From contig NZ_JACIJH010000001.1 in assembly GCF_014199295.1 (NCBI RefSeq), positions 620,001 to 684,000 of the forward strand: DNA of 64,000 nt, written 5' to 3'. This document shows, piece after piece, positions 13,351 through 53,949 of the stretch. The translations under genes were made by a program, and so were the position numbers. The notes under the pieces are model-generated. The model did not search any database, had not been told where the DNA came from, and was given only the letters and a program-made list of their open reading frames with translations. Every line of letters begins with the position of its first letter. Positions within the stretch are counted from its first letter, which is position 1. Source of the DNA: Sphingopyxis panaciterrulae (lineage in GTDB: Bacteria > Pseudomonadota > Alphaproteobacteria > Sphingomonadales > Sphingomonadaceae).

Positions 13351-13409
13351 TTGTTTCTGCGCGGGAGCGTCCATGTCGGCTTCGGGGCGGAGAGTTGACA
13401 TCCCCACCT

Positions 13410-13447
13410 TTGTCATTCCCGCTTTCCCAGGCACACCTTTGTTATAA
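13410..13447. repeat. 38-bp inverted relative of the serine-recombinase end sequence (copy A)
   Basis: Contains GTCATTCCCGC and GGCACACCTTT then TTATAA. Compared by eye with the reverse complement of 53871-53908 it matches at 32 of 38 positions. It lies at the left edge of the nsrR-ncg-nirK block, so it may be an old attachment or element end. A widespread genomic repeat is the alternative. Confidence 0.6.
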
Positions 13448-13510
13448 TTTTATAATGGTAGCGATCTGATGCATCCGACTTGTCCATTCCTGGGCCACGT
13501 TGCAAACTTG

Positions 13511-13546
13511 TCCCTCACTTCCATCAGCAAATGGATGCATCAGGGA
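13511..13546 (-). terminator. Imperfect stem-loop downstream of nsrR
   Basis: TCCCT/AGGGA and TCCAT/ATGGA can pair around the loop CAGCAA, 29 bases after the nsrR stop on the minus strand. No T-run follows, so it is only a possible terminator or mRNA end. An 11-base inverted pair CTGATGCATCC (13466) / GGATGCATCAG (13533) lies in the same gap. Confidence 0.35.
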
Positions 13547-13574
13547 TAGAACGACGATCGACATTCGACATGTC

Positions 13575-14030
13575 TTATTGGCGTTCTTCGCCGAGACCGA
13601 TTCTCAACAGGGGCTGCTGGGTCATTAGGCGTCGCATCGCATCACGGTCGGTCAGTAGATCCGCAACGCTGTAGGTGTCGAAGACATTCATCATAGCCTG
13701 CATGCCCTTTGCCAGAACGCCCGTTAGGCCGCAGGCAGGCGACAGGGAGCAACCAGAACATTCGGCTAATTCGAAACCTTCTTCGGTTCGTCGCACGACT
13801 TCGCCGACACTGATTCGATCAGCCGGGCGTGCCAGACGCATACCTCCTGAACGCCCCCGCACCGTCTCGATGAAGCCGTCATGAGCCAGCGCGTTTGCGA
13901 CCTTCATCAGGTGATTATGAGACACGCCGTAGGTGCGCGAAATTTCACCGATCTTACACAGGCGTTCATCGTGAAGCGCGAGATGGATCAAGACCCGAAG
14001 CGAATAATCCGTATAGCGGGTGAACCGCAC
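13575..14030 (-). CDS. nsrR: NsrR-type Rrf2 family nitric-oxide-sensing repressor
   Basis: 151 residues. The N-terminal winged helix (MRFTRYTDYSLRVLIHLAL, then ISRTYGVSHNHLMKVANAL) matches Rrf2/NsrR. Three cysteines C91, C94 and C100 in ECSGCSLSPACGL can hold an Fe-S cluster; Escherichia coli NsrR uses C91, C96 and C102. NO damages the cluster and releases DNA. It is divergent from ncgA, and an NsrR-like palindrome sits just before ncgA. IscR or another Rrf2 protein is less likely given the neighbours. The start ATG gives the standard N-terminus. Confidence 0.87.
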   Translation of the reverse strand: MRFTRYTDYSLRVLIHLALHDERLCKIGEISRTYGVSHNHLMKVANALAHDGFIETVRGRSGGMRLARPADRISVGEVVRRTEEGFELAECSGCSLSPACGLTGVLAKGMQAMMNVFDTYSVADLLTDRDAMRRLMTQQPLLRIGLGEERQ

Positions 14031-14345
14031 ATACTTCTCCTGAACGGGATTATCCCGACGGTCGTCAATAGACGAATGCGTCCGACCGGTCCAGTCGGCG
14101 CATCGCCATCGGCGCCCGCGAGCAGGATTCGAACGTCGAGCTGCCGATCTCTTTGATCATCGGATCTCGAAACCAGGCATGAATCAATCGGGAAGCAGCA
14201 ATGCGGCGAGGCCGTATTCTGCGCTTGCCGCGCGTCCCGGCAACATTCCGATACATAAATTTGGATCGGCGGAATCTTATTTGCTGGACAGGCAGATTTG
14301 GCGGCCATATAAAATATGTATCTTAAATACATCTTATAAGGATGC
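14031..14345. other. Divergent intergenic region nsrR / ncgA
   Basis: 315 bases without a convincing gene. It becomes AT-rich towards ncgA (from about 14250) and contains the NsrR-like operator. Short frames on the minus strand (for example 14065-14256) match nothing I know. GGATTCGAAC at 14125-14134 resembles a tRNA T-loop by chance only, with no cloverleaf around it. Confidence 0.6.
14313..14335 (+). promoter_or_regulatory. Predicted NsrR operator upstream of ncgA
   Basis: The 17-base core ATGTATCTTAAATACAT (14316-14332) has perfect 6-base arms and, with AAT before and CTT after it, closely follows the known NsrR consensus of two ATGCAT-like half sites around TTTAA. It ends 10 bases before the first ncgA ATG and would block transcription of ncgABC-nirK until NO appears. 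Confidence 0.75.
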
Positions 14346-15446
14346 ATGATGACGCATATCACGCGACGCGATGCCGTTTTCAAAGGGTTGGGGGCGGCCG
14401 TTGCGGTTCCGGCATTGACTGCCGTGGCATCCGATGCCGCTGGAAAAGACAGAGGCGCCGCTGCTGGAAAGCCGCGCGGACAGGCGGCGCAGCACAAGTT
14501 CGAAATGAACATCGAGGAAACCCGAATCACGCTGGTCGGGCAGCAGACGTTCCAGACTTTTGCCTATGCCGGCCAGGTTCCCGCACCGCTGTTTCACGTC
14601 CGCGAGGGGGATCATGTCGAGGTCGTCCTCAACAATCTGACAACCCTTCCCCATACGATCCACTGGCACGGCCTGTTGCAGCGCGGGAGTTGGGAGATGG
14701 ACGGCGTTCCCGACATGACCCAACTTGGCATTCAGCCCGGCGACAGCTTCACCTACAAGTTTGTTGCCGAACCGGCGGGGACGATGTGGTATCATTGCCA
14801 CGTCAATGTGAACGAGCATGTCGCGACGCGCGGCATGTGGGGGCCGTTCATTATCGATCCCGTCAAACCCGCGCCGATCGAGCGCGACGTCACGGGTGAC
14901 TATATCCTGATGTTTTCGGAGTGGGCGTCGTCATGGGCCGACAAGCTCGGCCAAGGTGGCATGCCGGGCGACGTGTTCGACTATTTCACGATCAACGGTA
15001 AATCCTTCCCCGAAACGCAGCCCATCCGCGTCAAGGAGGGCGACGTCATTCGTCTGCGCATGTTCGGCGCCGGCGGCGGTTTCCATTCGATCCACATCCA
15101 TGGACATGTGTTCCAGATCGTCTTCAAGGACGGCCATCAGCTTCCCGCGCCGATCAACGCCGATACCGTGCTTGTCGGCCCCGGAGAGCGATACGACATC
15201 ATCCTGCGGTGCGACAATCCGGGCCGCTGGATGATCCACGACCATATCGACAGCCATACAATGAACGGCCACACGCCACATGGCGGGGTAATGACGCTCA
15301 TCGAATATGACGGCATCCCGCGCGACCAATCCTATTACCACTGGGCGCACAAGGAGTTCGTGCCGGACTTCTATTACGAGGAGAGCCTTCGCAAACCCCA
15401 CGGCATCCATACGAACCCCAATTTCAAAGGCACCCCGGTCGCTTGA
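14346..15446 (+). CDS. ncgA: Two-domain multicopper oxidase NcgA (blue copper oxidase, type C), TAT-exported
   Basis: 366 residues. A twin-arginine signal (TRRDAVFKGLGAAVA) directs folded export. Domain 1 has LPHTIHWHG (H103, H106, H108) and WYHCHVNVNEHVATRGM with type 1 copper ligands H103, C151, H158 and M164. Domain 2 has FHSIHIHGH and WMIHDHIDSH, which supply trinuclear-cluster histidines but no type 1 cysteine. Type 1 copper in domain 1 only defines type C two-domain oxidases such as Nitrosomonas europaea blue copper oxidase, the ncgA product. ATG 14349, one codon later, has better spacing to AAGGA. Confidence 0.88.
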   Translation: MMTHITRRDAVFKGLGAAVAVPALTAVASDAAGKDRGAAAGKPRGQAAQHKFEMNIEETRITLVGQQTFQTFAYAGQVPAPLFHVREGDHVEVVLNNLTTLPHTIHWHGLLQRGSWEMDGVPDMTQLGIQPGDSFTYKFVAEPAGTMWYHCHVNVNEHVATRGMWGPFIIDPVKPAPIERDVTGDYILMFSEWASSWADKLGQGGMPGDVFDYFTINGKSFPETQPIRVKEGDVIRLRMFGAGGGFHSIHIHGHVFQIVFKDGHQLPAPINADTVLVGPGERYDIILRCDNPGRWMIHDHIDSHTMNGHTPHGGVMTLIEYDGIPRDQSYYHWAHKEFVPDFYYEESLRKPHGIHTNPNFKGTPVA

Positions 15447-15457
15447 GGAGACGCACG

Positions 15458-16159
15458 ATGAAAGGTTCATTGATCTTGGCGGCGAGTGCGGGGGTCGTTC
15501 TCCTGGCGTTTGCCATCCGCCCGACCGCCGTGGATGCCCAGGCAGCGGGGTCCGAACTGGCCAGCCAATGCGCATCGTGCCACGCTTTGACGAAGCCGGC
15601 CGAGGTTACGGTGGACCGCCTGTGGACGCGGAAGGGCCCCGACCTCTGGTATGCGGGCGACAAGTTCAACAAGGAATGGCTCGTCGCGTGGCTGCAAAAG
15701 CCGACCGTCATCCGCCCCGGCGGCGTGCTGTGGTTCAAACACGCCAAACCCGGCGAGCCCCGCGACACGATCGACACGGCCGCTGTCGAGAAGCATCCCG
15801 CTGTGGATGCGGAAACCGCGACGAAACTGGCTGACCAGCTGATGCTCTTGAAGAGCGGCGGACTCGTTACAGAAGGGGCGTTCAAGCCTGAATCCGCCAA
15901 TGCGGCGATGGGCAAGCTAGCCTTTTCCAAGCTGCGCGGCTGCATCGCTTGCCATCAGAGCGCAGCGGGCACAGGCGGGCTTTCCGGGCCGGAGCTTTAT
16001 GACGCGGGCCAGCGTCTGCGGGCCGATTATGTCATCGCCTATATGAAGGACCCGCAGCAGTTCGATCCCCATATCTGGATGCCGACGCTGACGCTGTCCG
16101 AGCCCGATCTTCAACGCATCACGGGCTATGTCATGTCTCTTGGAAAGGAGGACAAGTGA
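15458..16159 (+). CDS. ncgB: Diheme cytochrome c (NcgB-like)
   Basis: 233 residues with an N-terminal signal/anchor (MKGSLILAASAGVVLLAFAI) and two c-type heme sites, C38-A-S-C-H42 and C162-I-A-C-H166. It should pass electrons in the periplasm to NcgA or NirK. GAGGAG lies seven bases before the ATG, so I prefer 15458 to the frame start at 15443. It begins 11 bases after the ncgA stop. The position, two hemes and gene order match ncgB of the Nitrosomonas ncgABC-nirK cluster. Confidence 0.87.
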   Translation: MKGSLILAASAGVVLLAFAIRPTAVDAQAAGSELASQCASCHALTKPAEVTVDRLWTRKGPDLWYAGDKFNKEWLVAWLQKPTVIRPGGVLWFKHAKPGEPRDTIDTAAVEKHPAVDAETATKLADQLMLLKSGGLVTEGAFKPESANAAMGKLAFSKLRGCIACHQSAAGTGGLSGPELYDAGQRLRADYVIAYMKDPQQFDPHIWMPTLTLSEPDLQRITGYVMSLGKEDK

Positions 16160-16548
16160 TGATCCGTTTCGGGATCGCGATGCTCGGCCTGGTCGCGATG
16201 ACCGGCGCCATCGCCGTTCATCAACCCGCCACCGCAGGAAGCGACAATCCCAGGATCGCGGCGTCGGCGCATCTTTACGACACCTATTGCGCCCAGTGCC
16301 ACGGCGTTCAGCGCAACGGCAAGGGGGTGAACACCGTCGGCCTGTCGGTTCAGCCGCGCGACCATAGCGACACGGCGGGCATGTCCTCTCTGCCGCGCGA
16401 CCAGATGATCAAGGCCATATCGGAAGGCGGTGGGGCGGTGAACAAATCGGCACTGATGCCATCCTGGTCCGCCGTTCTGTCCAAGGAACAGATCGAAGAT
16501 ATGGCCGACTATCTCATCTATGTCTGCAAATGCGACACAGCCCAGTAA
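16159..16548 (+). CDS. ncgC: Monoheme cytochrome c (NcgC-like)
   Basis: 129 residues: a signal peptide (MIRFGIAMLGLVAMTGAIAVHQPATA) and one heme site, C44-A-Q-C-H48, with candidate axial methionines in ALMPSW. The ATG at 16159 overlaps the ncgB stop by one base and follows AAGGAGG at seven bases; the GTG at 16156 is less likely. Likely a small periplasmic electron carrier to NirK. Third gene of the ncgABC-nirK operon. Confidence 0.86.
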   Translation: MIRFGIAMLGLVAMTGAIAVHQPATAGSDNPRIAASAHLYDTYCAQCHGVQRNGKGVNTVGLSVQPRDHSDTAGMSSLPRDQMIKAISEGGGAVNKSALMPSWSAVLSKEQIEDMADYLIYVCKCDTAQ

Positions 16549-16574
16549 ATTGCTTCAAAACAGGGGATATTTTT

Positions 16575-17498
16575 ATGCGTAAATCCATATTGCTCGCCGC
16601 TTCGGCGATCATGGCGATGGCCTGTCAGCCCGCCTTCGCCAAAGAGGTGACCTTGACGTTGAACGCCAAGGAAGTGATGCTTCCCATCGACAACAAGGGG
16701 ACCATGCAGGCGTCGTGGACGTTCGAGGGGCAGGTGCCTGGCCCGCTGCTTCGGGTGACCGAAGGCGATACCGTCACCATCGTCCTGACCAACGACGCCG
16801 CCAACAAGAATTCGCATTCGATTGACCTGCACGCCGCGCGCGTCGACGTGATTCAGGATTTTGAAGCAATCAAGCCGGGCGAGACCAAGACATTCCAGTT
16901 CGTCGCGACGCATCCGGGCGCCTTCTATTATCATTGTGGGTCGGACCCCATGTATCAGCATATCGCCCGCGGCATGTTCGGCGTCATCCTGGTCGACCCG
17001 AAGGATCCGAACGCACTTCCCAAGGCCGACCGCGAATATGTTCTCGTTCAGTCGGAAGTATACGCCAACCCCGACGATCTTCATTCGATCATGAAGTCCG
17101 ATTGGTCGAACGTTGTCTTCAACGGCGTCGCGTTCAAATATGACCCTGTGCACGACCCGGCGGCGACCAAGATGCTGGTCGCAAAGCCAGGTGAACGGGT
17201 GCGCGTCTATTTTATCAACGCCGGACCCAATGAATTTTCCTCGTTCCATCCGATCGCGGGCATTTGGGACGCGGTCTATCCGAGCGGTAATCCCGCGAAC
17301 AAAAAGGTCGGGATGCAGAGCATGGTGGTCGGCCCCGGCGACGGCGCAACCTTCGATCTGATTTCGCCCGTCGAGGGAGCGAACGTGATCGTCGATCACT
17401 CGATGGCCCACGCACATACCGGCGCGATGGCGGTCGTCATGTTCTCGAACGATGCCGATCCGGCCATGGGGCGAGGCGATCTGATCCTGGTTCCCTGA
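16575..17498 (+). CDS. nirK: Copper-containing nitrite reductase
   Basis: 307 residues. It reduces nitrite to nitric oxide in the periplasm. The signal peptide ends AFA at residue 22. Type 1 copper ligands: H81 (HSIDLH), C121 and H129/M134 (YYHCGSDPMYQHIARGM). Type 2 ligands: H86, H120 and H275 (IVDHSMAH). Catalytic residues equivalent to Asp98 and His255 of classical NirK are D84 and H225 (SSFHPIAG). All key residues are present, so it should be active. ATG 16575 follows AGGGGA; the earlier in-frame ATG lies inside ncgC. Expected to be induced through NsrR. Confidence 0.93.
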   Translation: MRKSILLAASAIMAMACQPAFAKEVTLTLNAKEVMLPIDNKGTMQASWTFEGQVPGPLLRVTEGDTVTIVLTNDAANKNSHSIDLHAARVDVIQDFEAIKPGETKTFQFVATHPGAFYYHCGSDPMYQHIARGMFGVILVDPKDPNALPKADREYVLVQSEVYANPDDLHSIMKSDWSNVVFNGVAFKYDPVHDPAATKMLVAKPGERVRVYFINAGPNEFSSFHPIAGIWDAVYPSGNPANKKVGMQSMVVGPGDGATFDLISPVEGANVIVDHSMAHAHTGAMAVVMFSNDADPAMGRGDLILVP

Positions 17499-17529
17499 CC
17501 TCGCTCCAGGAGCGGATGTCCTTTCCCCC

Positions 17530-17576
17530 GTTCCGGCTTTCCAAGCGATCCTTGATCCTCGCCGGAGAGCCGGAAC
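17530..17576 (+). terminator. Stem-loop after nirK
   Basis: GTTCCGGCT (17530-17538) and AGCCGGAAC (17568-17576) are perfect 9-base arms around a 29-base loop. There is no T-run, so it may be a partial terminator or an mRNA-stabilising hairpin between nirK and the TonB receptor. A second hairpin (CGCCGAC... GTCGGCG, 17600-17617) lies just beyond. Confidence 0.45.
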
Positions 17577-17675
17577 ACCCCTCTCGACATCGCCGCGCCC
17601 GCCGACTTCAGTCGGCGGCACGCTGTTCGCGGTGCCCGCTGAACAACGAACGCAGTAGAAGGACCATCAAGGTTC

Positions 17676-19943
17676 ATGCTCCGACTTCCAATCCCAGTCG
17701 GCCTCGTCGCCAGTGCGTTCTGCATCTCCGTTCCGGCCGCCGCTGCCGAAGCCGTCGACGATGACGCCGTTCGCGCTTCGCCGTCCGTCATCATCGTCAC
17801 AGCGCAACTCGAAGATCGCGAGTTACAGGACCTCAGGACGCCCGCGCTCGGCGTCGCCGTCGGCGGTGAGCAGATCGCGGCGATCAACGCGATAAATGCC
17901 GAGGATGTGGTGCGCTACGCGCCCGCGCTGATCGTCCGCAAACGCTATATCGGCGATGCCAACGCAACGCTGTCGTTCCGTAACATGCACACGACCCAGA
18001 CGCCGCGCGCGCTGGTGACGGTAGACGGCTTCACCATCTCCAACTTTCTCGGCGCCGATTTCTTTACCGCGCCCAAATGGGCGGTGCTGGCCCCCGACGA
18101 CATCGCGCGCGCGGAAATCATCTATGGGCCGACGTCGGCGCGCTATTCGGGCCATTCGATGGGCGGGACCATGCTCGTCAAGACCCGCGAGATCACCGAA
18201 ACGGCGGCACACCTGAACGCGCAGATATTCGGCCAGAATTACAAATACTACAAAACCGACGAAGACCTGCTCGGCTGGTCGGTCGACGCCGGGTTCGATT
18301 TCGTTCTGGGCGATCGCGGCGGCATCTCGGTTGGCTACCGCCATTTCGAGAATGAAGGGCAGCCGCAGGAATGGCGGACGGTCAGCGCCTCGTCGCTTTA
18401 TGGCGATCAGGCCATCGTCGACAGCGAACTCTCTTTCCTGCGGATCGGCGCGCAGGATTCGACAGTCGATTCCACCGAGGATCAATTCCGCCTGCGCGCG
18501 CAATATGATCTTGGCGGCGGCTGGGAATTGCGCGGCCTCGCGGCTCTGCTCGTCAATCGGGAAGATATGTTGAACCCCAGGAGCTTCCTGCGCGATGCCA
18601 GCGGCGCGGAAACCTTCGTCGGCATCGGCGGCGTCAATAGGGGAATCGCCGGATCGACCGAATTGCTTGCGGGCATCGGTCTGTCGGGCGAGGCGGCGGG
18701 CTGGAGCCTCGACCTGTCATTCAGCCGGTTCGACGTGCTGAGCAATCGGGAACGCCGCTCCGACAATTTCGACATCGTGACGGGCGAACGCCCGAATAGC
18801 GGGCGGCTGGCGACCAATGACGCCGGGTGGAACAGCTTTGAGGGCACGGCGGAACGCCGCTTCGGCGCGCATGCGCTGGCGCTGGGCCTATCCTATGCGG
18901 GCTATGCCGACGACAACCGCGTGCACGCCACGTCCGACTGGCGGCGCGCCAGCGTGACCAGCCTGCGCGATGCATCGGGCGGCGAGACCCGGCTGCTCGG
19001 CGCGTTCGTCGAGGATGCCATCGCCTTAGCGCCAAGGCTGACGGCGACGCTCGGTCTGCGTTATGAAGGCTGGCGCGCGTCGGGCGGCTTTCTGACGAAC
19101 GGCGGTGCGACCCTTCGCTATGCCAAACGGAGCCGCGATGGCTGGTCGCCCAAGGCGGCGCTGAGCTTCAAGCCCGACCACCATAGCGAAATCGTCGCCT
19201 CGGCCGCGCTCGCCACACGTTTCCCCACGGTGCGCGAGCTCTATCAGGCCGGGTTGGTCGCGTATGGCCCCAATGTCGGGGACCTCGACCTCAACGGTTT
19301 CAACCCGGACCTTGAACCTGAACGCGCGATCGACTTGCAACTGACGGCGGCGCGCCGGATCGGTAAGGTCAAGGTCACGCTCTCGGGCTACCGGCAGGAC
19401 GTCAAGGACACGATCTTCTCGCAGAGCATCGCCATCCCCGATGCGGTGATGGGCGATCTGACGCAAGCCACGCTGATGACCAACATCGGCAAGGTCCGCA
19501 CCTGGGGGGCGGAAGCGATCCTGTCGGCCGACAACATCCTGATCGACGGGCTATCGTTCGATGCGAACGCTTCGTGGATCGATGCGGAGGTGACGCGCAA
19601 CCCGCTCAATCCCGCGCTGGTCGGCAACAAATTCCCGCGTGTGCCCAAATGGCGGGCGAACGCCAGCGTCCGCTACAGCCCCCGCGCCGACTGGACGTTC
19701 GCCGCGAATTTCCGCCACCAGAGCACGCCGGATCGCAATATCGAGAACAACGGCACGTCGCGGTGCGACACTTTCTATTGCGTCTCGACCTTCGCCTTCG
19801 TCGACCTGAAGGCGATCAAGCGGTTCGGGAGCTTCGAGCTGTCGGCGGGCGTCGACAACCTCCTCGATGAAAAAGCGTTCGTCTATCACCCCTATCCGGG
19901 GCGGACCATCGTGCTCGGCCTCAAGTGGAACACCGGGCTATGA
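17676..19943 (+). CDS. TonB-dependent outer-membrane receptor linked to the nirK cluster
   Basis: 755 residues. A signal peptide (ending PAAAAEA) is followed by a TonB-box-like VIIVTAQ, a plug domain (about 45-165, with RNMHTTQTPRALVTVDGF and the plug end YGPTSARYSGHSMGGTMLVKT), then a beta-barrel ending in LGLKWNTGL. These receptors import metal chelates or other ligands using TonB energy. Position after nirK and before a PepSY protein suggests copper or a metallophore, but the ligand is not shown by sequence. It overlaps the PepSY gene by ATGA. Confidence 0.9.
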   Translation: MLRLPIPVGLVASAFCISVPAAAAEAVDDDAVRASPSVIIVTAQLEDRELQDLRTPALGVAVGGEQIAAINAINAEDVVRYAPALIVRKRYIGDANATLSFRNMHTTQTPRALVTVDGFTISNFLGADFFTAPKWAVLAPDDIARAEIIYGPTSARYSGHSMGGTMLVKTREITETAAHLNAQIFGQNYKYYKTDEDLLGWSVDAGFDFVLGDRGGISVGYRHFENEGQPQEWRTVSASSLYGDQAIVDSELSFLRIGAQDSTVDSTEDQFRLRAQYDLGGGWELRGLAALLVNREDMLNPRSFLRDASGAETFVGIGGVNRGIAGSTELLAGIGLSGEAAGWSLDLSFSRFDVLSNRERRSDNFDIVTGERPNSGRLATNDAGWNSFEGTAERRFGAHALALGLSYAGYADDNRVHATSDWRRASVTSLRDASGGETRLLGAFVEDAIALAPRLTATLGLRYEGWRASGGFLTNGGATLRYAKRSRDGWSPKAALSFKPDHHSEIVASAALATRFPTVRELYQAGLVAYGPNVGDLDLNGFNPDLEPERAIDLQLTAARRIGKVKVTLSGYRQDVKDTIFSQSIAIPDAVMGDLTQATLMTNIGKVRTWGAEAILSADNILIDGLSFDANASWIDAEVTRNPLNPALVGNKFPRVPKWRANASVRYSPRADWTFAANFRHQSTPDRNIENNGTSRCDTFYCVSTFAFVDLKAIKRFGSFELSAGVDNLLDEKAFVYHPYPGRTIVLGLKWNTGL

Positions 19944-21334
19944 GCGCGCGAGATCCGCGGCAGCCGCTCTACGCCACGATTTGGCGCTGGCATTTTTACG
20001 CCGGGCTGCTCGTCGTCCCCTTCGTCCTGCTGCTGGCCATGACCGGCGCAGCCTATCTGTTCAAGCCGCAGGTGGAACGATGGGAGGAACGCGCCTTCCA
20101 GGGCCTGCCGACCACGCACGCTGTCACGGCGCAGGCGCAGGTGGCGGCCGCGCTGACGGCGTTCCCTGGCGCCCGCTTCGCCAGCTATCGCCTGCCCGAA
20201 CGACATGGCGACGCGGCGATGATCCATCTCGACCAGCGCGACGGCCGCACGCCGCGCGACGTGTTCGTATCTCCTCAGGGCGCGGTGCTCGGCAGCATCG
20301 CGCCCGGCGCGCGCCTGATGGAATGGGCCAAGCGCATCCACGGGCAATTATTGCTCGGCAAGCGCGGAAGCTGGATCGTCGAACTGGCGGCGAGCTGGGC
20401 GCTGGTGCTCCTATTGTCGGGGCTTTACCTCTGGTGGCCGCGCGGCCGCGGGCTTGCCGGAGTGGTGTGGCCGCGCTTCGGCGGCGGGCGGCGTCTGTTC
20501 TGGCGCGACCTGCACGCGGTCACGGGATTCTGGGTGTCCGGCCTGGCGCTGGTCCTGCTCGTCACGGCGCTGCCCTGGGCGGGAGTCTGGGGCAGCGCCT
20601 TCAAGGCGGCGCGGACCGAAATGGGCTGGGTCAAGGGGCCGCAGGACTGGACGCTGGGGGGCGAAGCCCCGGCGCCGGGCGGCGATGCACACGCCGGGCA
20701 CGCCGCGCATGGTGGCGCCGCGATGGCGCGCAGCATGTCGATGACCGCCACCGGCGCCCCGCAGGCCGGTCTGGATATGATCGTCGCGAAAGCCGAGGCC
20801 GAGCATCTCGCCTTTCCCGTGATCGTCACGCCGCCCGGCGCACCCGGCTCGCTCGGAGCGACGGGCGTCATGACGTGGACGGTCCGCTCGGACGCGCAGA
20901 ACAGGCCGCTGCGAACGAGCATCACCTATGACCCGGCGACGGGCCGAGAAATCGGCCGCGACGGCTTTGCCGACGATCATGTGATCGACCGCGTCGTGGG
21001 ATATGGCATCGCGTGGCACGAGGGGCAGCTGTTCGGATGGATGAACCAGCTCATCGGCGTGCTGACCGCGATCGGCCTCATCGTCATGGCGGTCAGCGGT
21101 TTCGTCCTCTGGCGTCGGCGCAGGCCCGCGGGGATGCTGGGGGCGCCCCCGCCCGCCCGCGCCCCCGCGCGCATTGGTGGGGTCGTCGCGATCCTGCTGC
21201 TGCTGGCCGCCATGCTGCCGCTGCTGGCGATTTCGCTGATGGCGCTCTGTCTGTTTGAGTGGCTGGTGCTCCCGCATTTACCGCAGGCGGCGCAATGGCT
21301 GGGAGCGCCATCGCGCAACGCCGCCGTAGGGTAG
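19940..21334 (+). CDS. PepSY-associated membrane protein (reductase-like)
   Basis: 464 residues with about five membrane helices: YAGLLVVPFVLLLAMTG at the N-terminus, two after residue 145, and two at the C-terminus. The order PepSY_TM helix, HGQLLLGKRG, WDLHAVTGFW-like LFWRDLHAVTGFW matches the PepSY-TM family often paired with siderophore receptors, where it is thought to reduce ferric chelates. A loop rich in His and Met (DAHAGHAAHGG, MARSMSMT) could bind copper. Starts on the TonB receptor stop, so co-translated. Confidence 0.85.
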   Translation: MSARDPRQPLYATIWRWHFYAGLLVVPFVLLLAMTGAAYLFKPQVERWEERAFQGLPTTHAVTAQAQVAAALTAFPGARFASYRLPERHGDAAMIHLDQRDGRTPRDVFVSPQGAVLGSIAPGARLMEWAKRIHGQLLLGKRGSWIVELAASWALVLLLSGLYLWWPRGRGLAGVVWPRFGGGRRLFWRDLHAVTGFWVSGLALVLLVTALPWAGVWGSAFKAARTEMGWVKGPQDWTLGGEAPAPGGDAHAGHAAHGGAAMARSMSMTATGAPQAGLDMIVAKAEAEHLAFPVIVTPPGAPGSLGATGVMTWTVRSDAQNRPLRTSITYDPATGREIGRDGFADDHVIDRVVGYGIAWHEGQLFGWMNQLIGVLTAIGLIVMAVSGFVLWRRRRPAGMLGAPPPARAPARIGGVVAILLLLAAMLPLLAISLMALCLFEWLVLPHLPQAAQWLGAPSRNAAVG

Positions 21335-21356
21335 GATCTGAGGAGCCGCAGCCCAT

Positions 21357-21659
21357 ATGTGCAACGATTCGAGAGGTTTGGCGAAACAGCCGATGGACGA
21401 CGAGCTTTACATATTGAGCAGGATCGATTTGCCCGCAGCGCTTGATACGCTCGATGATCGCATCATAGGCGCACTGTCGATCCGCAGGCGTGAAGGTGTG
21501 GCGGCGCGTCGGCTTACGGCGCTCGTGGCTTTTGTTTCGCTTGGTATTGGTATCGTCGCCGGAAGCGCGACTCCTCAGTCGGTGGTCGCGGCGAGTCCGC
21601 TTAGCCCCTTCGGTCCCCCGAGCGCACTGACCCCTTCCGTCTTGCTGGATGTGCAGTAA
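21357..21659 (+). CDS. Small single-pass membrane protein, unknown function
   Basis: 100 residues. An acidic N-terminal part (MDDELYILSRIDLPAALDTLDDRI) and a basic stretch precede one membrane helix (LTALVAFVSLGIGIVAGSA) and a short proline-rich tail. The topology resembles small proteins that precede CnrX-type periplasmic metal sensors, but I recall this only loosely. AGGAG lies 11 bases before the ATG; an internal ATG at 21393 is possible. It is 22 bases after the PepSY gene, probably the same transcript. Confidence 0.55.
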   Translation: MCNDSRGLAKQPMDDELYILSRIDLPAALDTLDDRIIGALSIRRREGVAARRLTALVAFVSLGIGIVAGSATPQSVVAASPLSPFGPPSALTPSVLLDVQ

Positions 21660-22580: not shown

Positions 22581-25520
22581 CTATCGGCTCATGCCAAGGT
22601 TGCGTCCGTGATCGAACGGCACCGAGTCCGCGAGATCGCGCGCCACGCTGCGGCCCATCGCCGCATCGATGCCCAATTCCCGAGTGCGTCCGCGCAGCAG
22701 CGATTCGACCTGCGCGTCGCGTTCGAGGCTTTTCGCCATGCCCGCCATTTCCTGCCCGACGCGCTTCGCGCCCCGGAAATCGCCGTCGCGGCGCAAGTCG
22801 TCGTGCGCCTGCCGGAGCTGCTTCCAGCCCTCGACAAAGCGGTCGGCGCGCTGGAACGGATCGGCACGCAATTCCGCTTCCTTGTTCATCGCCTGCACCG
22901 CGGCCTGGCTACGCCCCGCCGCGGCCTCGCGAATAAGCTCCGGCTGGCGCTGGAGGGCGTTCTGCAAGTCGGTGGATGCGTGAGGCCGGATCGCGTCCAA
23001 TGCCTCTCCTGCCCTGTTCAGGGCGTCGTGCTGGTGAGGCAGCACCGGCAAGCCCTGATCGCGCATCCGCGCGATGTCATCGACAGCACGGGCATAGCGT
23101 TCGACGGCGCGGCGCTGGCCGGTGGCATGGGAGGGCTGGGTCTGCGCCTGTTCGCGCGTCCGTTCTGGCGGACGGAAGCCCGCGAACATACCCTGCTCAC
23201 GCGGCTGACCGGGCAGCGAGAGGCGCAAGCCGTCGAAGATCCCGCGCGCCTTCTCTGCACCCGCGCGGGCGATGTCCGCGATGCGTTCGCCAATGCCGCG
23301 CCGCTCGGCGAACTCCTTGGCCGGATCGACGCGGGCATAATCGCTCGCCATGTCTTTCGCGCGCTCGCGGGACAGGGTGCGGGCAAGCTGGGCATCGTCC
23401 TTGAAGTCGTCGCGGCCATAGTGAAGGGCCAAGCCGTCGCGGTGGCGGGTCATGCCGACATAGCTGCTATGACGGTCCATGCCGGGTGTCGCCAGCACAT
23501 GGCCACGGTCCACCGTCATGCCCTGCGCCTTGTGGATCGTGGCGGCATAGCCGTGATCGAAGTCGCGATAATCCTTCGTGTCGAAAGCGACGCTGCGGCC
23601 GTCATCGGTGCGGACGGTCATGCCCTGCTGATTGACCTGTTCGACGGTGCCCAGCGTGCCGTTCTTCACTTCAAGGCCGCGCTCATTACGCAGGAACATG
23701 ATGCGGTCGCCCGATGCAAAATCCCGTTCGCCGCGCTCGACCTTCATGCGAACATCGTCGCCCAGTTCGCCCGCCGCGCGCATCCGGTCGCGGGCGGTGT
23801 CGTTGAGTTCGCGCACCTCGTCATTGGTATGGGTGAGAATGATCCGGCTGGCGTCTGGGTTCGCTTGCCGGTCGCGATCCCACCGCTCGACAAGCTCGGT
23901 GCGTGCCTGTTCGCGCGTCTCGGCGGTGTGAACCATGCCGCGCTCGGCGTAGGCGTTGATCGCCTCGCCGGTTCGGCCGGTAGCAAGATGCCGGGTAGCG
24001 TCCTGCTGCCAGCCTTCATGCTGGCGGCGGACCTCCGTGATCTCGACGCCGCCATGCCGTTCGTGGATCGCCCGGAACGCCGCGCCCGCCTCAATCGCTT
24101 GCAACTGCTGCGGGTCGCCGACGAGCACGACCTTGGCGCCGGCGTCGGCGGCATGGGACAGAACGCGTTCCATCTGGCGCGTGCCGACCATGCCAGCTTC
24201 GTCGATGACGAGAACATCGCGGGCGGTAAGCATATCGCGCCCCTGCGACCAGCCATGCTCCATGCTGGCGATGGTCCGCGACGCTATGCCGGAGCCATTC
24301 TCCAGCCCTTCGGCAGCGATGCCCGACAGCGCGACGCCGCGCACATTGAACCCGGCCTCTTCCCATGCCTCCCGCGCCACGCCCAGCATTGCGCTCTTGC
24401 CGGTCCCGGCATAACCGACGACGACGCTCAAATCCCTGCCCTCGGTCACATGGTCGAACGCCGCGCGCTGCTCGCCCGATAGGTCCAATCCGTGCGCCGC
24501 CGCCGCGCGAAGCGCGCCCTCCCGGTCGCTCTCGCGGACGCGATGACGTTCCCGCTCGGCCATCAATTCCGAAGCGCGCTGCAACCGCTGTTCGGTGTCG
24601 ATCATATCGCGGCAGGTGAAGCGATCTTCGCCGCGCCCGTCCTTGCCGAGTTCGATCAAGTCGGGCGAACCGCGAACAGCGCTCATCGCCCGGTCGTATT
24701 GATCCTTCCCGTCGGTGTGGCTATGCACGAACATCGCAAGGTCGCGATTGGTGAACGTCGCCTGATGGTGGGTGATTGCGTCGAGCGCGACACGCGGCTC
24801 CGCGATGATGCGTTCGCCGTTGCGCTGCGCGACGGCGCGATGATCCTCGATGCGCTCGGACTCAAGACCGCGCTCGCCCATGCGCGCCGCTGCGGGGCCG
24901 ATCTTGTCTTGCGGCTCAAGGTCGATGCCCTGCGCTTCCAGCGATCGGTGATCTATGCGGGCGTCAATGTCGAGTTCGGCAAGGCGGGCGTTGACATGAT
25001 CGGCCCAACGCTCGCGCCATTGCTCGACAAGTTCGGTGCGGTTCCAGTCGCGGACCTTTTGCGCGAACCCGCCCTCGCTGACTTCGCGCATGGTGAGCAT
25101 GACATGGGCGTGCGGCTTCGCCATGCCGTCCGCGCCGATGTCCCAATGCACATTCAAATCCGCAATCATGCCGCGTTCGACAAACTCGGACTGGACGAAA
25201 TCGCGGGCAAGCTCGATGCCATCGGCCTTGGCCATCTCGCGCGGAATGGAAAACTCTATCTCGCGGGCAAGCTGCGCGTCCTTGCGCTTCTCGGTCGCCT
25301 CGACGTCATTCCAGAGGCGTTCGCGGTCGCGCCACTGTTCGGGCGCACCTTCTGGCAGCATGATCTCGCTATGCTCGACGCCCGACTTGGCGCGGAAATC
25401 ATGGTCGCGATCCAGCCGCTCGTCGTGCAGGCGTTCGCCAGCCCGATAGGCGGCTGCGGCAACGGCGCTGCGCCCGGCAGCGCGTCCGATGACTTTCGCG
25501 GAGAAGTGAAAGATCGCCAT
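22581..25520 (-). CDS. traA: Ti-type conjugative relaxase/helicase TraA (MobA/MobL family)
   Basis: 979 residues. The relaxase domain (1 to about 220) opens MAIFHFSAKVIGRAAGRSAVA and has the catalytic tyrosine region AAAAYRAGERL (Y25) and the metal-binding HAH at 137-139 (KPHAHVMLTMR). The helicase part has Walker A GYAGTGKS (369-376) and Walker B VLVIDEAG (to 443). It nicks oriT and unwinds DNA for transfer. The start is at 25520, the family N-terminus; 13 upstream codons are not conserved. Divergent from traC across an oriT-like sequence. It appears intact, but mating-pair and coupling genes are absent here. Confidence 0.93.
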   Translation of the reverse strand: MAIFHFSAKVIGRAAGRSAVAAAAYRAGERLHDERLDRDHDFRAKSGVEHSEIMLPEGAPEQWRDRERLWNDVEATEKRKDAQLAREIEFSIPREMAKADGIELARDFVQSEFVERGMIADLNVHWDIGADGMAKPHAHVMLTMREVSEGGFAQKVRDWNRTELVEQWRERWADHVNARLAELDIDARIDHRSLEAQGIDLEPQDKIGPAAARMGERGLESERIEDHRAVAQRNGERIIAEPRVALDAITHHQATFTNRDLAMFVHSHTDGKDQYDRAMSAVRGSPDLIELGKDGRGEDRFTCRDMIDTEQRLQRASELMAERERHRVRESDREGALRAAAAHGLDLSGEQRAAFDHVTEGRDLSVVVGYAGTGKSAMLGVAREAWEEAGFNVRGVALSGIAAEGLENGSGIASRTIASMEHGWSQGRDMLTARDVLVIDEAGMVGTRQMERVLSHAADAGAKVVLVGDPQQLQAIEAGAAFRAIHERHGGVEITEVRRQHEGWQQDATRHLATGRTGEAINAYAERGMVHTAETREQARTELVERWDRDRQANPDASRIILTHTNDEVRELNDTARDRMRAAGELGDDVRMKVERGERDFASGDRIMFLRNERGLEVKNGTLGTVEQVNQQGMTVRTDDGRSVAFDTKDYRDFDHGYAATIHKAQGMTVDRGHVLATPGMDRHSSYVGMTRHRDGLALHYGRDDFKDDAQLARTLSRERAKDMASDYARVDPAKEFAERRGIGERIADIARAGAEKARGIFDGLRLSLPGQPREQGMFAGFRPPERTREQAQTQPSHATGQRRAVERYARAVDDIARMRDQGLPVLPHQHDALNRAGEALDAIRPHASTDLQNALQRQPELIREAAAGRSQAAVQAMNKEAELRADPFQRADRFVEGWKQLRQAHDDLRRDGDFRGAKRVGQEMAGMAKSLERDAQVESLLRGRTRELGIDAAMGRSVARDLADSVPFDHGRNLGMSR

Positions 25521-25540
25521 GACGGCAATCCATCTACGCC

Positions 25541-25585
25541 ACCAAGCGCACGTCGGCACGACGTATAAGCGCGCCCTTCTCGAAT
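25541..25585. other. oriT: Predicted origin of transfer (oriT) of the Ti/RSF1010 type
   Basis: ACGTATAAGCGCGCCCTT at 25561-25578 closely matches the nick region of Ti-plasmid and RSF1010-type origins (ACGTATAATTGCGCCCTT and TAAGTGCGCCCT). Immediately upstream is an inverted repeat CGTCG-GCA-CGACG (25551-25563). The position between divergent traA and traC is where Ti plasmids carry oriT. The nick is expected in or beside the GCGCCC motif. Confidence 0.75.
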
Positions 25586-50570: not shown

Positions 50571-51174
50571 CAACGTCTCCCTTTATCTGGGGCCGCCTCT
50601 AGCGTTGCCAGATCATCTGCACAATGCTCGGAAAGCGAGGGCGTAGGTCGCGCGGATCGACACGGTGACCCAGGGATGCAGGTGCCCCGGGGCTTGCGCC
50701 GTCGCGAGCCCCTTCGTCATCATATGGGTCATCGGACCGATTCGCTCGATATTGATCCCCCGCGCTGCCAGCGAGTGGGCCGATCAATGCCCCAATAGCG
50801 AATGCAGCCCCGCGCTTATCGCACGCTCATCCGTCCGAACGACTAACGACTGCTTTTATGGCCAGCCGAGCTAGAGTTGAACGGCTTGGATCGGGCGCCA
50901 AGCCGACACGCTCCCTTAAATGGGAATGAAAACGACTAACTTAGCGGGCGTACCACCGGCTGAAAGTCGGCGGTCGACTGCATTCATTGGGACGGCATGG
51001 GAAAAATTTTATCCGACGCAATCGAACGCTGCTCGACGCAACGGGACGCAGGCGGACGCCAGCACTAGCGAGCGTGGGCGGCACGGCCGTGCCCATGCCC
51101 TTGCAAAACATGGCCGAATCGAAAATCCTGTATCCAGGGGAGCCCAATCGCCGTCAGCCGATGGAGTATATCCC
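50571..51174. other. 600-base junction region without a convincing gene
   Basis: Holds the possible gene remnant (50613-50783), then a stretch of mixed composition with GGCACGGCCGTGCC, a perfect 14-base palindrome at 51080-51093, and repeated GGACGC-like units (51035-51060). No intact coding frame with a ribosome site is seen. The left end of the recombinase element is probably here, but its exact base is not evident. Confidence 0.5.
50613..50783 (-). pseudogene. Possible 3' remnant of an unrecognised gene upstream of the MFS gene
   Basis: The minus-strand frame ending at TGA 50613-50615 reads ARGINIERIGPMTHMMTKG and HPWVTVSIRATYALAFRAL, which has the look of natural protein but begins right after a stop at about 50784 and has no start or ribosome site. 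It may be the C-terminus of a gene cut when the recombinase element arrived. I cannot name a family, and chance is possible. Confidence 0.3.
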
Positions 51175-51411
51175 ATGCCTGCCCCCGAGAAGATCATCCG
51201 CCTCAACACCGTCCTCACCCGCACCGGATTGTCCCGTTCGACCCTCTACCGCAAGATTGCTGAAGGCACTTTTCCTGCGCAATTGAAGATCAGCATTCAC
51301 GGCGCTGGTTGGCATGAGTCCGCTATCGATCGCTGGATCGCCGATCCTGCTCGCTATCGCGCGGACAATGATGACGAAGCGCGTGCCGGAGCTGATCATG
51401 CCAAAGGATGA
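51175..51411 (+). CDS. AlpA family phage-type transcriptional regulator
   Basis: 78 residues, a short MerR-like winged helix. RLNTVLTRTGLSRSTLYRKIAEGTFPAQLKIS and WHESAIDRWIADPARYR are the AlpA signature. AlpA-type activators control integrase or excision genes of islands and satellite phages. The ATG at 51175 follows GGAG by nine bases; the longer frame from 50920 has no family support. It leads the gene block of the serine-recombinase element. Confidence 0.85.
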   Translation: MPAPEKIIRLNTVLTRTGLSRSTLYRKIAEGTFPAQLKISIHGAGWHESAIDRWIADPARYRADNDDEARAGADHAKG

Positions 51412-51915: not shown

Positions 51916-52253
51916 ACATCGTGACCCTCTCCGTCGCTTCGCGCGAAGCGGTCGATGCCCGTGCGCTGGCGGCGTTCGAGGGAAAGGCGCAGGGCGCGCA
52001 TTACTCCTTCGGGTCGCCCGACCTGCTTTGGCAGACGCTGACCCGCAAGCGCTGGGAACTGCTCCAGGCCATGACCGGGCAAGGTGCGATGTCGATCCGC
52101 GAAGCCGCGCGGCGCGTCGGGCGCGACGTCAAGGCGGTGCATGGCGATGTCCAGGCGCTACTCGCTGCCGGGGTGATCGATCGTTCGGGGCGCGGCATCG
52201 TCTTTCCCTATGATGCGGTCCATGTCGATTTCATGCTGACCAAAGCCGCGTGA
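51900..52253 (+). CDS. TumA-type HTH antitoxin
   Basis: 117 residues. C-terminal winged helix: LTRKRWELLQAMTGQGAMSIREAARRVGRDVKAVHGDVQALLAAGVIDR, then FPYDAVHVDFML. It is the expected partner of the TumE toxin and probably also represses the pair. ATG 51912, which overlaps the toxin stop as ATGA, is an equally good start. The recombinase gene begins 17 bases after its stop. Confidence 0.78.
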   Translation: METRMNIVTLSVASREAVDARALAAFEGKAQGAHYSFGSPDLLWQTLTRKRWELLQAMTGQGAMSIREAARRVGRDVKAVHGDVQALLAAGVIDRSGRGIVFPYDAVHVDFMLTKAA

Positions 52254-52270
52254 CAGAAAGGGGAAACGTC

Positions 52271-53905
52271 ATGATCCGCGCCGCGCTCTATGCCCGCTAT
52301 TCCTCCGACCAGCAGAATGCCGCGTCGATCGCCGACCAGCAGCGCCTCTGCCGCGAGCGCGCGGTGCGCGAAGGCTGGCAGGTCGAGGGCGTCTATGAGG
52401 ACGCCGCCATCTCGGGATCGAGCATGATCCTGCGTCCCGGCGTCCAGAGGCTGCTTGCCGATGCACAGGCGGGCAAATTCGATATCGTGCTTGCCGAAGC
52501 CCTCGACCGCGTGTCGCGCGATCAGGCCGATGTCGCAACGCTCTACAAGCACCTCCAGTTCGCTCGGGTGCCGCTCATCACCCTCGCCGAAGGTGAAATC
52601 TCCGAACTGCATGTCGGGCTCAAGGGCACGATGAATGCGCTGTTTCTCAAGGATCTTGCCAAGAAGACGCATCGCGGCCTGCGCGGCCGTGTCGAGAAGG
52701 GCTATTCGGCGGGCGCTGTCGGCTATGGCTATCGGATGGTCCGGCGCCTTTCGAGCGAAGGCGAGTTGGTGCGCGGCGAGCGCGAAGTCGATCCGGCGCA
52801 GGCGCTGATCGTCGAACGCATCTTCCGCGAGTTTTCTGCTGGCAAAAGTCCGATCGCCATCGCGCGCGACCTCAACGCAGAGGGCATAGTGGGACCGTCT
52901 GGAAAGCCTTGGCGCGATACGAGCATCCGGGGCACGCCGCGCCGCGGCCTCGGCATCCTCAACAACGAGCTTTATGTCGGGGTCCGCGTCTGGAACCACA
53001 AACATTATGTGAAGGACCCGACTACCGGCAAGGATGTCACCCGGCTCAACCCCGAATCCGAATGGGTGCGCAAGGCCGTGCCCGACCTGCGGATTATCAG
53101 CGACGACCTATGGGACGCAGCCAAGCGCCAGCAGAACATGCTCGCCGCGCGCAACACGGGCCGCAAGGAAGCAGCTCAAGCGAGAAGCGTCAACGGGCTG
53201 CGGCGGGCGGCCTATCTTCTGTCGGGTCTGCTCGAATGCGGCGAATGCGGCGGCAACTTTGCGATCGTCACGACCGATCGCTACGGCTGCATCGGTCATC
53301 ACCGTAGCCGCAACTGCACCAACAGCCGGACCATCCGGCGTGATGACCTCGAACGCCGGGCGCTCGCCGGTATCGCTGAGCGGCTGGTGTCGGCCGACAA
53401 GATCGACGCGGCCGTTGCCGCTTATGCGGCGCATATCAACCGCGAGAACCGCGAGCGGCGCATTCAGGCCGATGCCGATACCCGTGCGCTGGCGAAGATC
53501 GACAAGGCCGTCGCAGGTATCATGGCCGCGATCGAGGACGGGCTGTATCAGCCGAGCATGAAGGCGCGCATGGCTGAACTCGAATGCGAGAAAGCGGAGA
53601 TCACGGCGCGGCTCGCCGAAGCACCTGCCGGTATTCCCGATATCCATCCCGGCATTGCCGAAATCTACAAGCGTAAGGTCGCACAGCTCACGGAAACGCT
53701 CAAAGACCCGGAGACGCGGCTTGATGCGTCAGCCGACATCCGCTCACTCGTCGGCAAGATCGTGCTGCATTCTGGTGAGAAGCGCGGCGAGGTTCATGCC
53801 ACGCTGCACGGCTCGCTCATGGGTATTCTCGACTTCGTCAACGACAACCCGCAACCCGACGCCGACCGAGTTATAATAAAGGTGTGCCCGGGTTCGCGGG
53901 AATGA
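52271..53905 (+). CDS. Large serine recombinase (site-specific integrase)
   Basis: 544 residues. Resolvase catalytic domain (1 to about 150): ALYARYSSDQQNAASIADQ with nucleophile S11, then LAEALDRVSRDQAD. The recombinase domain (about 155-270: GYGYRMVRRL, IFREFSAGKSPIAIARDLNAEGI) is followed by a zinc ribbon (LECGECGGNF ... CIGHHRSRNC) and a coiled-coil. These enzymes integrate and excise DNA between attP and attB. The ATG at 52271 follows AGGGGA. The last dozen codons overlap the 38-bp repeat B, so an att site may lie at its 3' end. Confidence 0.94.
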   Translation: MIRAALYARYSSDQQNAASIADQQRLCRERAVREGWQVEGVYEDAAISGSSMILRPGVQRLLADAQAGKFDIVLAEALDRVSRDQADVATLYKHLQFARVPLITLAEGEISELHVGLKGTMNALFLKDLAKKTHRGLRGRVEKGYSAGAVGYGYRMVRRLSSEGELVRGEREVDPAQALIVERIFREFSAGKSPIAIARDLNAEGIVGPSGKPWRDTSIRGTPRRGLGILNNELYVGVRVWNHKHYVKDPTTGKDVTRLNPESEWVRKAVPDLRIISDDLWDAAKRQQNMLAARNTGRKEAAQARSVNGLRRAAYLLSGLLECGECGGNFAIVTTDRYGCIGHHRSRNCTNSRTIRRDDLERRALAGIAERLVSADKIDAAVAAYAAHINRENRERRIQADADTRALAKIDKAVAGIMAAIEDGLYQPSMKARMAELECEKAEITARLAEAPAGIPDIHPGIAEIYKRKVAQLTETLKDPETRLDASADIRSLVGKIVLHSGEKRGEVHATLHGSLMGILDFVNDNPQPDADRVIIKVCPGSRE

Positions 53906-53908
53906 CGA
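53871..53908. repeat. 38-bp sequence at the recombinase gene end (copy B, possible att)
   Basis: It begins TTATAATAAAGGTGTGCC and ends GCGGGAATGACGA, covering the recombinase stop codon. Its reverse complement matches 13410-13447 at 32 of 38 positions. Large serine integrases often lie next to their att site, so this may be attL or attR of the element. Confidence 0.55.
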
Positions 53909-53949
53909 AGATTTGAGAACGCCGCCCGTGGCCGTTTTCAGTCCCCGCG

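Follow-up and report, generated by a model that had tools for sequence, protein, structure and literature searches.

We find that a 64,000-nucleotide stretch of the Sphingopyxis panaciterrulae genome (the window; assembly GCF_014199295.1, contig NZ_JACIJH010000001.1, forward-strand positions 620,001 to 684,000) carries an ncgABC-nirK cluster, encoding the copper nitrite reductase NirK with a multicopper oxidase and two cytochromes c, at the left end of a genomic island. The reading we favor, at a probability of roughly 0.85, is that of a mobile ncgABC-nirK operon, probably under NsrR-like control, of the kind found in Nitrosomonas europaea, Nitrobacter and Sphingomonas (Rhizorhabdus) wittichii RW1. 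The cluster itself is real, well formed and of a known kind. Its occurrence in a sphingomonad is already known from RW1 and the present case is a new example, to which our analysis adds the island and a link to a TonB-dependent receptor.

The cluster and its regulator

All five frames of the cluster are open between 13575 and 17498, with an nsrR-like gene (13575–14030, minus strand) divergent from the contiguous plus-strand genes ncgA (14346–15446), ncgB (15458–16159), ncgC (16156–16548) and nirK (16530–17498). These frames and their Pfam matches bear out the genes, order, strands and coordinates proposed earlier from the letters of the window (the sequence-only reading): an Rrf2-family regulator (Rrf2, 9e-32), a two-domain multicopper oxidase (Cu-oxidase_3, Cu-oxidase_2 and Cu-oxidase), a diheme cytochrome c (Cytochrom_C), a monoheme cytochrome c (Cytochrome_CBB3, 4e-11) and a copper nitrite reductase of the N. 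europaea type (Cu-oxidase_3 and Cu-oxidase_2). Type C two-domain oxidases have a cysteine in domain 1 and none in domain 2, and NcgA follows this pattern as proposed, with an HCH-type cysteine in domain 1 only and a cysteine-free HDH in domain 2; its leader is twin-arginine-like (both by eye). The heme assignments hold as well, with two CxxCH motifs in NcgB and one in NcgC, as in the 22 NcgB and 25 NcgC homologs counted, a count that leaves out one NcgB frame with a mis-set start (locus L054). NirK is identical to the solved structure 4kns at His-x2-Asp-x-His, Tyr-His-Cys-Gly, Gln-His-Ile-Ala-Arg-Gly-Met, Asp-His-Ser-Met and a later His, stretches that we take to hold the copper ligands and catalytic residues, so that the set said to be complete is indeed present. 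NirK matches 4kns best in the PDB (E 1e-136, 68.4% identity over 282 residues) and NcgA matches 3g5w best (E 8e-155, 67.3% over 315 residues), both presumably N. europaea proteins; NcgA groups with 3g5w in a tree with support of 100/100.

Some starts allow a choice: the ncgB frame is open from a TTG at 15443, with its first ATG at 15458; ncgC starts with GTG at 16156, with an ATG at 16159; and the likelier start of nirK is 16575, where two relatives (L008 and L010) begin to align. The gaps from ncgA to nirK, of 11, about −1 to −4, and 26 bases, suggest that the four genes may be read as one unit. The order ncgA-ncgB-ncgC-nirK is kept in 10 relatives (L007–L014, L044 and L045; L009 starts inside ncgB), in which the ncgB homologs hold the same place, and the five genes have a G+C content of 57–63%, compared to 66–67% in the flanks. 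A perfect 11-base inverted repeat, CTGATGCATCC/GGATGCATCAG, lies 3' of the regulator gene (13466–13476 and 13533–13543), with one change in Sphingopyxis flava.

The regulator has the three spaced cysteines expected from the sequence-only reading, as C-x2-C-x5-C, and its best PDB match is NsrR (5n07, E 1e-16). A predicted NsrR operator, ATGTATCTTAAATACAT, lies at 14316–14332, 30 bases 5' of the ncgA ATG, and has no mismatch to the consensus core published for the NsrR palindrome (PMC1274295), against which it was scored. Shuffling the window 100 times gives no such exact match, and the 4.43-Mb genome has it only here, along with four further sites with one mismatch; the pattern read backwards has no match genome-wide. 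A box with no or one mismatch is found at −30 to −35 in eight of the 10 loci with DNA before ncgA (the window, L007, L008, L010, L013, L014, L044 and L045), and an equal match arises in 120 bases of first-order random sequence in only 0–17 of 2000 trials per locus for these eight. Together these sites indicate that the cluster is probably under an NsrR-like repressor.

Several observations weigh against a single transcript under NsrR control. The regulator scores 128.7 bits against the NCBIfam NsrR model NF008240 (cut-off 182) and 133.7 bits against the RirA model NF008886 (cut-off 193), reaching neither, and we therefore name it NsrR-like on its operator and position. Its cysteine spacing is shared by the sphingomonad copies L007, L008, L010 and L044, while L011–L014, L045, L051 and L053 have C-x6/7-C-x5-C, with a longer first spacing. 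Upstream of ncgA the operator has two mismatches in L012 (equaled in 30 of 2000 random trials) and none is found in L011 (1103 of 2000), and a 2005 survey places NsrR in only one alphaproteobacterium (PMC1274295). Upstream of the receptor gene next to the cluster there is no NsrR box with fewer than five mismatches, and upstream of the nitric oxide (NO) reductase gene elsewhere in the genome the best site has four, which leads us to dismiss NsrR control of that gene. We find no sigma-70-like promoter in the region (shuffles, mean 1.3), and the weak terminator-like site 3' of nirK (17501–17515) is one of four in the region, compared to a mean of 3.5 in shuffles. Finally, oxygen limitation in N. 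europaea is reported to raise ncgA and lower ncgB and ncgC (PMC6967387), so that one transcript is not assured.

Island, relatives and precedent

The island spans approximately 13351–53955 (≈40.6 kb), limits that follow from the joining of its flanks in relatives. The gene to its left, an M2-type peptidase by sequence, is present in 38 of 40 genus genomes, our own included, and among the 29 empty-site loci obtained from 37 matching relatives, the DNA beyond 53955 lies 59–1017 bases from the end of the peptidase gene in 25, with a junction that the available flank does not show in the other four (L060, L063, L064 and L065); island or module DNA is found in none of the 29. The island carries a MobA/MobL relaxase with a helicase domain (22581–25559, minus strand; PF03389 1.6e-73, AAA_30 1.3e-60), in agreement with the earlier placement of the cluster beside conjugation genes, as well as an AlpA-type regulator (50920–51411, plus strand; PF05930 6e-14) and, at the right junction, a large serine recombinase (52250–53905, plus strand; PF00239 9e-25, PF07508 3e-22, PF13408 4e-10). 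A recombinase at one end and empty sites in relatives fit an integrative element; no clear att core repeat was seen by eye in the junction sequences. The island ends share a near-inverted 30-base match (about 13409–13438 and 53880–53909, by eye), which we do not claim as an end repeat and which may be a common intergenic repeat. A catabolic set occupies 27083–50573, with acyl-CoA dehydrogenase, alcohol dehydrogenase, nitronate monooxygenase-like, flavin monooxygenase-like, phosphotransferase-family and transporter genes.

The cluster recurs in other settings. One 8216-base match at 92% identity joins positions 13412–21612 to a locus of S. flava (L007), the rest of whose 18.9 kb has no match to window DNA; there the block stands between a release-factor-3-like gene (by eye) and a CHAT-domain gene, and in a Sphingopyxis bin (L008) a patatin gene and a dnaJ gene flank the five genes. 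With these differing flanks, the window, S. flava and the bin hold three related copies in three neighborhoods. NirK of the N. europaea type is rare, occurring in 3 of 397 family genomes (our own included, E ≤ 1e-60), 1 of 385 class genomes (our own, E ≤ 1e-80) and 14 of 398 phylum genomes (our own and 13 of a family that we label f38), and NcgA in 1 of 396 order genomes (our own, E ≤ 1e-120). A pattern search of named genomes gives eight loci with the cluster, from S. flava, a Sphingopyxis bin, Novosphingobium, Sphingobium, two Phenylobacterium bins, a Rhodospirillaceae bin and an unplaced Pseudomonadota bin. The PLSDB records matched by NirK in tblastn, 40 in all, are each below 60% identity (36–37% in the best 30 of the 40); there is thus no close plasmid copy, and plasmid carriage was dismissed. 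None of eight pattern matches in viral contigs encodes a relative.

Trees of 28 NirK and 16 NcgA sequences (L009 has no NcgA), built after removal of matches shorter than 250 or 280 residues or below 40% or 38% identity, and midpoint-rooted with one ammonia oxidizer included and Nitrobacter left out, place the window next to S. flava, followed by the Sphingopyxis bin and other sphingomonads. The clade that unites sphingomonads with sequences from the Phenylobacterium, Rhodospirillaceae and unplaced bins, and leaves N. europaea outside, has support of 96/98 for NirK and 100/99 for NcgA, and a more distant copy from the same family (G067) branches near its base. This topology fits a long circulation of the cluster in this largely alphaproteobacterial group.

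The closest studied system is that of RW1, a member of the same family, whose cluster with NsrR upstream was published in 2014 by Cua and Stein (PMC4123721). They report that nirK mRNA rises with nitrite and that cells convert nitrite to nitrous oxide (N2O), liken the cluster to those of Nitrosomonas and Nitrobacter, and count it complete in 2 of 51 sphingomonad strains; a full-text search of open-licence papers finds no other S. wittichii report on nirK with NsrR. The published RW1 nirK primers match locus L044 (genome G220) exactly, with a product of 742 bases as published, which identifies G220 as RW1 or an almost identical strain. RW1 (Swit_1789–93) shares with the window the genes, their order and the upstream NsrR-type gene, as well as NirK (90% identical), NcgA (87%), an operator at −30 with one mismatch, a TonB receptor after nirK and, as reported, quinol NO reductase (qNOR) genes elsewhere in the genome (PMC4123721). 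It differs in that its receptor is of another family, no PepSY homolog is found in its locus, and NO dioxygenase genes are reported for it, whereas the window genome has no match over cut-off to the flavohemoglobin model.

The reported N. europaea cluster (NE0924–27, with NsrR) has the same gene set, enzyme types and regulator family, but belongs to an ammonia oxidizer with norCBQD; its own NcgB and NcgC stand outside our cytochrome comparison. Nitrobacter winogradskyi (Nwi2648–53) has a copy in an alphaproteobacterium, but is a nitrite oxidizer with no known nor gene in the account of PMC5080386. Sphingopyxis granuli TFA is reported to have a qNOR and no nirK (PMC4741004). In Zetaproteobacteria nirK is described as adjoining ncgB and ncgC (PMC3603346), and in f38 (L050, L051, L053 and L054) it stands beside ncgB, ncgC and NcgA-like oxidases, but with 46–52% identity to the window proteins and with tandem nirK-like genes in some. 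Our guess is that f38 is zetaproteobacterial. Two of its loci, L050 and L051, have two tandem nirK-like genes and extra NcgA, NcgB and NcgC copies.

Nitric oxide handling and alternative readings

A genome-wide COX1-family search gives four matches, none in the window, which agrees with the statement of the sequence-only reading that no NO reductase is present there; the search did not extend to other kinds of NO reductase. One match is a qNOR (about C1:169470–171719; Pfam NorB_cytochrome_c-like and COX1, matching solved NorB over 743 residues), so that norB, proposed earlier as a genome-wide check, is indeed present. The end of its gene is overlapped by nnrS, the pair lies ≈465 kb from the cluster, and beside qNOR there is a gene for an oxidase subunit of cbb3-like type (by eye; COX1 match at C1:174068). 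All three genes stand close together (locus L043, 7471–13505). Where the earlier text left open that NO is released or handled elsewhere, the second option finds its sink in qNOR and NnrS. The companion check for nosZ comes out negative, with no genome match over cut-off to TIGR04244 (the Sec-type NosZ model was not searched), and the NarG model TIGR01580 and the models for NapA and flavohemoglobin likewise have no match over cut-off in the genome. The idea of a second nirK in the genome was set aside: of the only four matches, one is NirK itself, one is NcgA (29%), and the other two are weak and lie within a 606-residue frame of contig 12. Because an NO reductase is present and no match to the NosZ model passes its cut-off, N2O is the likely product of a route from nitrite through NO, with nitrite coming from outside or from other reactions.

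In the operon that we favor, nitrite or NO would damage the predicted iron-sulfur cluster of the repressor, which would then leave its operator and let the four genes be read together. In the periplasm, NirK would convert nitrite to NO, using electrons that NcgB and NcgC pass on from the cytochrome c pool. NcgA may limit harm from NirK activity, judging by analogy from mutants described for N. europaea, and the qNOR would turn NO into N2O.

Three other readings deserve weighing, the least probable of which by far is that the cluster was recently taken straight from an ammonia oxidizer. Its best solved matches, 3g5w and 4kns, and its position on an island could be read this way and speak for the ammonia-oxidizer type and the horizontal move proposed earlier; against a direct transfer stand the supported clade that excludes N. 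europaea, identities of 67–68% to the N. europaea proteins compared to 87–98% between the window copper proteins and five sphingomonad copies (L007–L010 and L044), and the distant same-family copy G067 (NirK 74.5%, NcgA 80.1%). It is also unlikely, if less remote, that the unit mainly removes NO, with NcgA and NirK oxidizing or scavenging it and NirK making little. N. winogradskyi is reported to have consumed NO, with production unconfirmed, while nirK was expressed, and a negative effect of nirK in ncgABC mutants is described in the same source (PMC5080386); N. europaea NirK has been suggested to oxidize NO (PMC10999283), and ncgABC has been called putatively NO-scavenging (PMC10781756). RW1, the closest studied case, nevertheless turns nitrite into N2O (PMC4123721), and the window NirK keeps its nitrite-reductase residues in a genome that has an NO reductase. 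We hold it a little less probable again that NirK serves as one step in a respiratory denitrification on which the cells grow anaerobically: the genome has nirK as well as qNOR, and the cbb3-like gene stands beside the latter, but NarG, NapA and NosZ models find no match over cut-off (nirS was not searched, nor was the Sec-type NosZ), and N2O formed in stationary phase in RW1 (PMC4123721).

The neighboring receptor and PepSY pair

Downstream of nirK lie a TonB-dependent receptor gene (17676–19943, plus strand; Pfam Plug and TonB_dep_Rec_b-barrel) and, overlapping it, a gene for a PepSY-TM membrane protein (19925–21334, plus strand; PepSY_TM 1e-64), the protein of which has, like its homologs, a His/Met-rich loop of low conservation. 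Homologs stand beside ncgABC-nirK in L007 (receptor 94%, PepSY 89%), L011 (34%, 58%) and L045 (37%, 51%), following nirK in the window, L007 and L011, and divergent from ncgA in L045 with the NsrR box between. A second, unrelated receptor family follows nirK in L009, L010 and L044, and L013 has a 35% homolog of it in a frame cut by the locus end, beyond which any PepSY gene would lie; neither family is matched in L012 or in the 2.1 kb that follow nirK in L008. Overall, eight of the 10 testable loci have a TonB receptor, of one or the other unrelated family, beside the cluster, and four have PepSY-TM as well; the eleventh locus, L014, with 0.2 kb of sequence past nirK, was left out of this count.

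These proteins probably import a metal or cofactor, of which copper would be one candidate, a guess prompted by the two copper enzymes in the cluster. We tentatively suggest that, in sphingomonads and their relatives, the NO-responsive operon travels with its own outer-membrane receptor, and often PepSY, as a route of metal (copper) supply coupled to NO sensing; that two unrelated families were each drawn into this position next to the operon is a part of this suggestion that we hold just as tentatively. A rather stronger contender, if still short of an even chance, is that receptor and PepSY are a passenger for iron, heme, a siderophore or another cofactor, unrelated to NirK. The best NCBIfam scores of the first family are with heme and siderophore models, all under cut-off and above the copper-receptor model TIGR01778, which lies so far below its cut-off that assignment to that family was rejected. 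Among solved structures, the second family comes closest to YncD and to a transporter of pyrroloquinoline quinone, and a 177-base gap with the weak terminator-like site separates nirK from the receptor gene. What speaks against a mere passenger is the recurrence of the receptor beside the cluster in those eight loci, in two unrelated forms and once divergent on the other side. The receptor of the window has no PDB match at E 1e-5, and none of the open-licence papers found in a search aimed at a receptor-nirK link deals with one by its title.

These findings mean that islands carry a nitrite-to-NO unit, known chiefly from nitrifiers, from one heterotroph to another, and nirK counts are therefore not readable as counts of nitrifiers or of full denitrifiers. 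Where an NO reductase is encoded and the NosZ model finds nothing over cut-off, the cells are likely N2O sources, and the receptor link offers a testable idea for how metal is supplied to copper enzymes.

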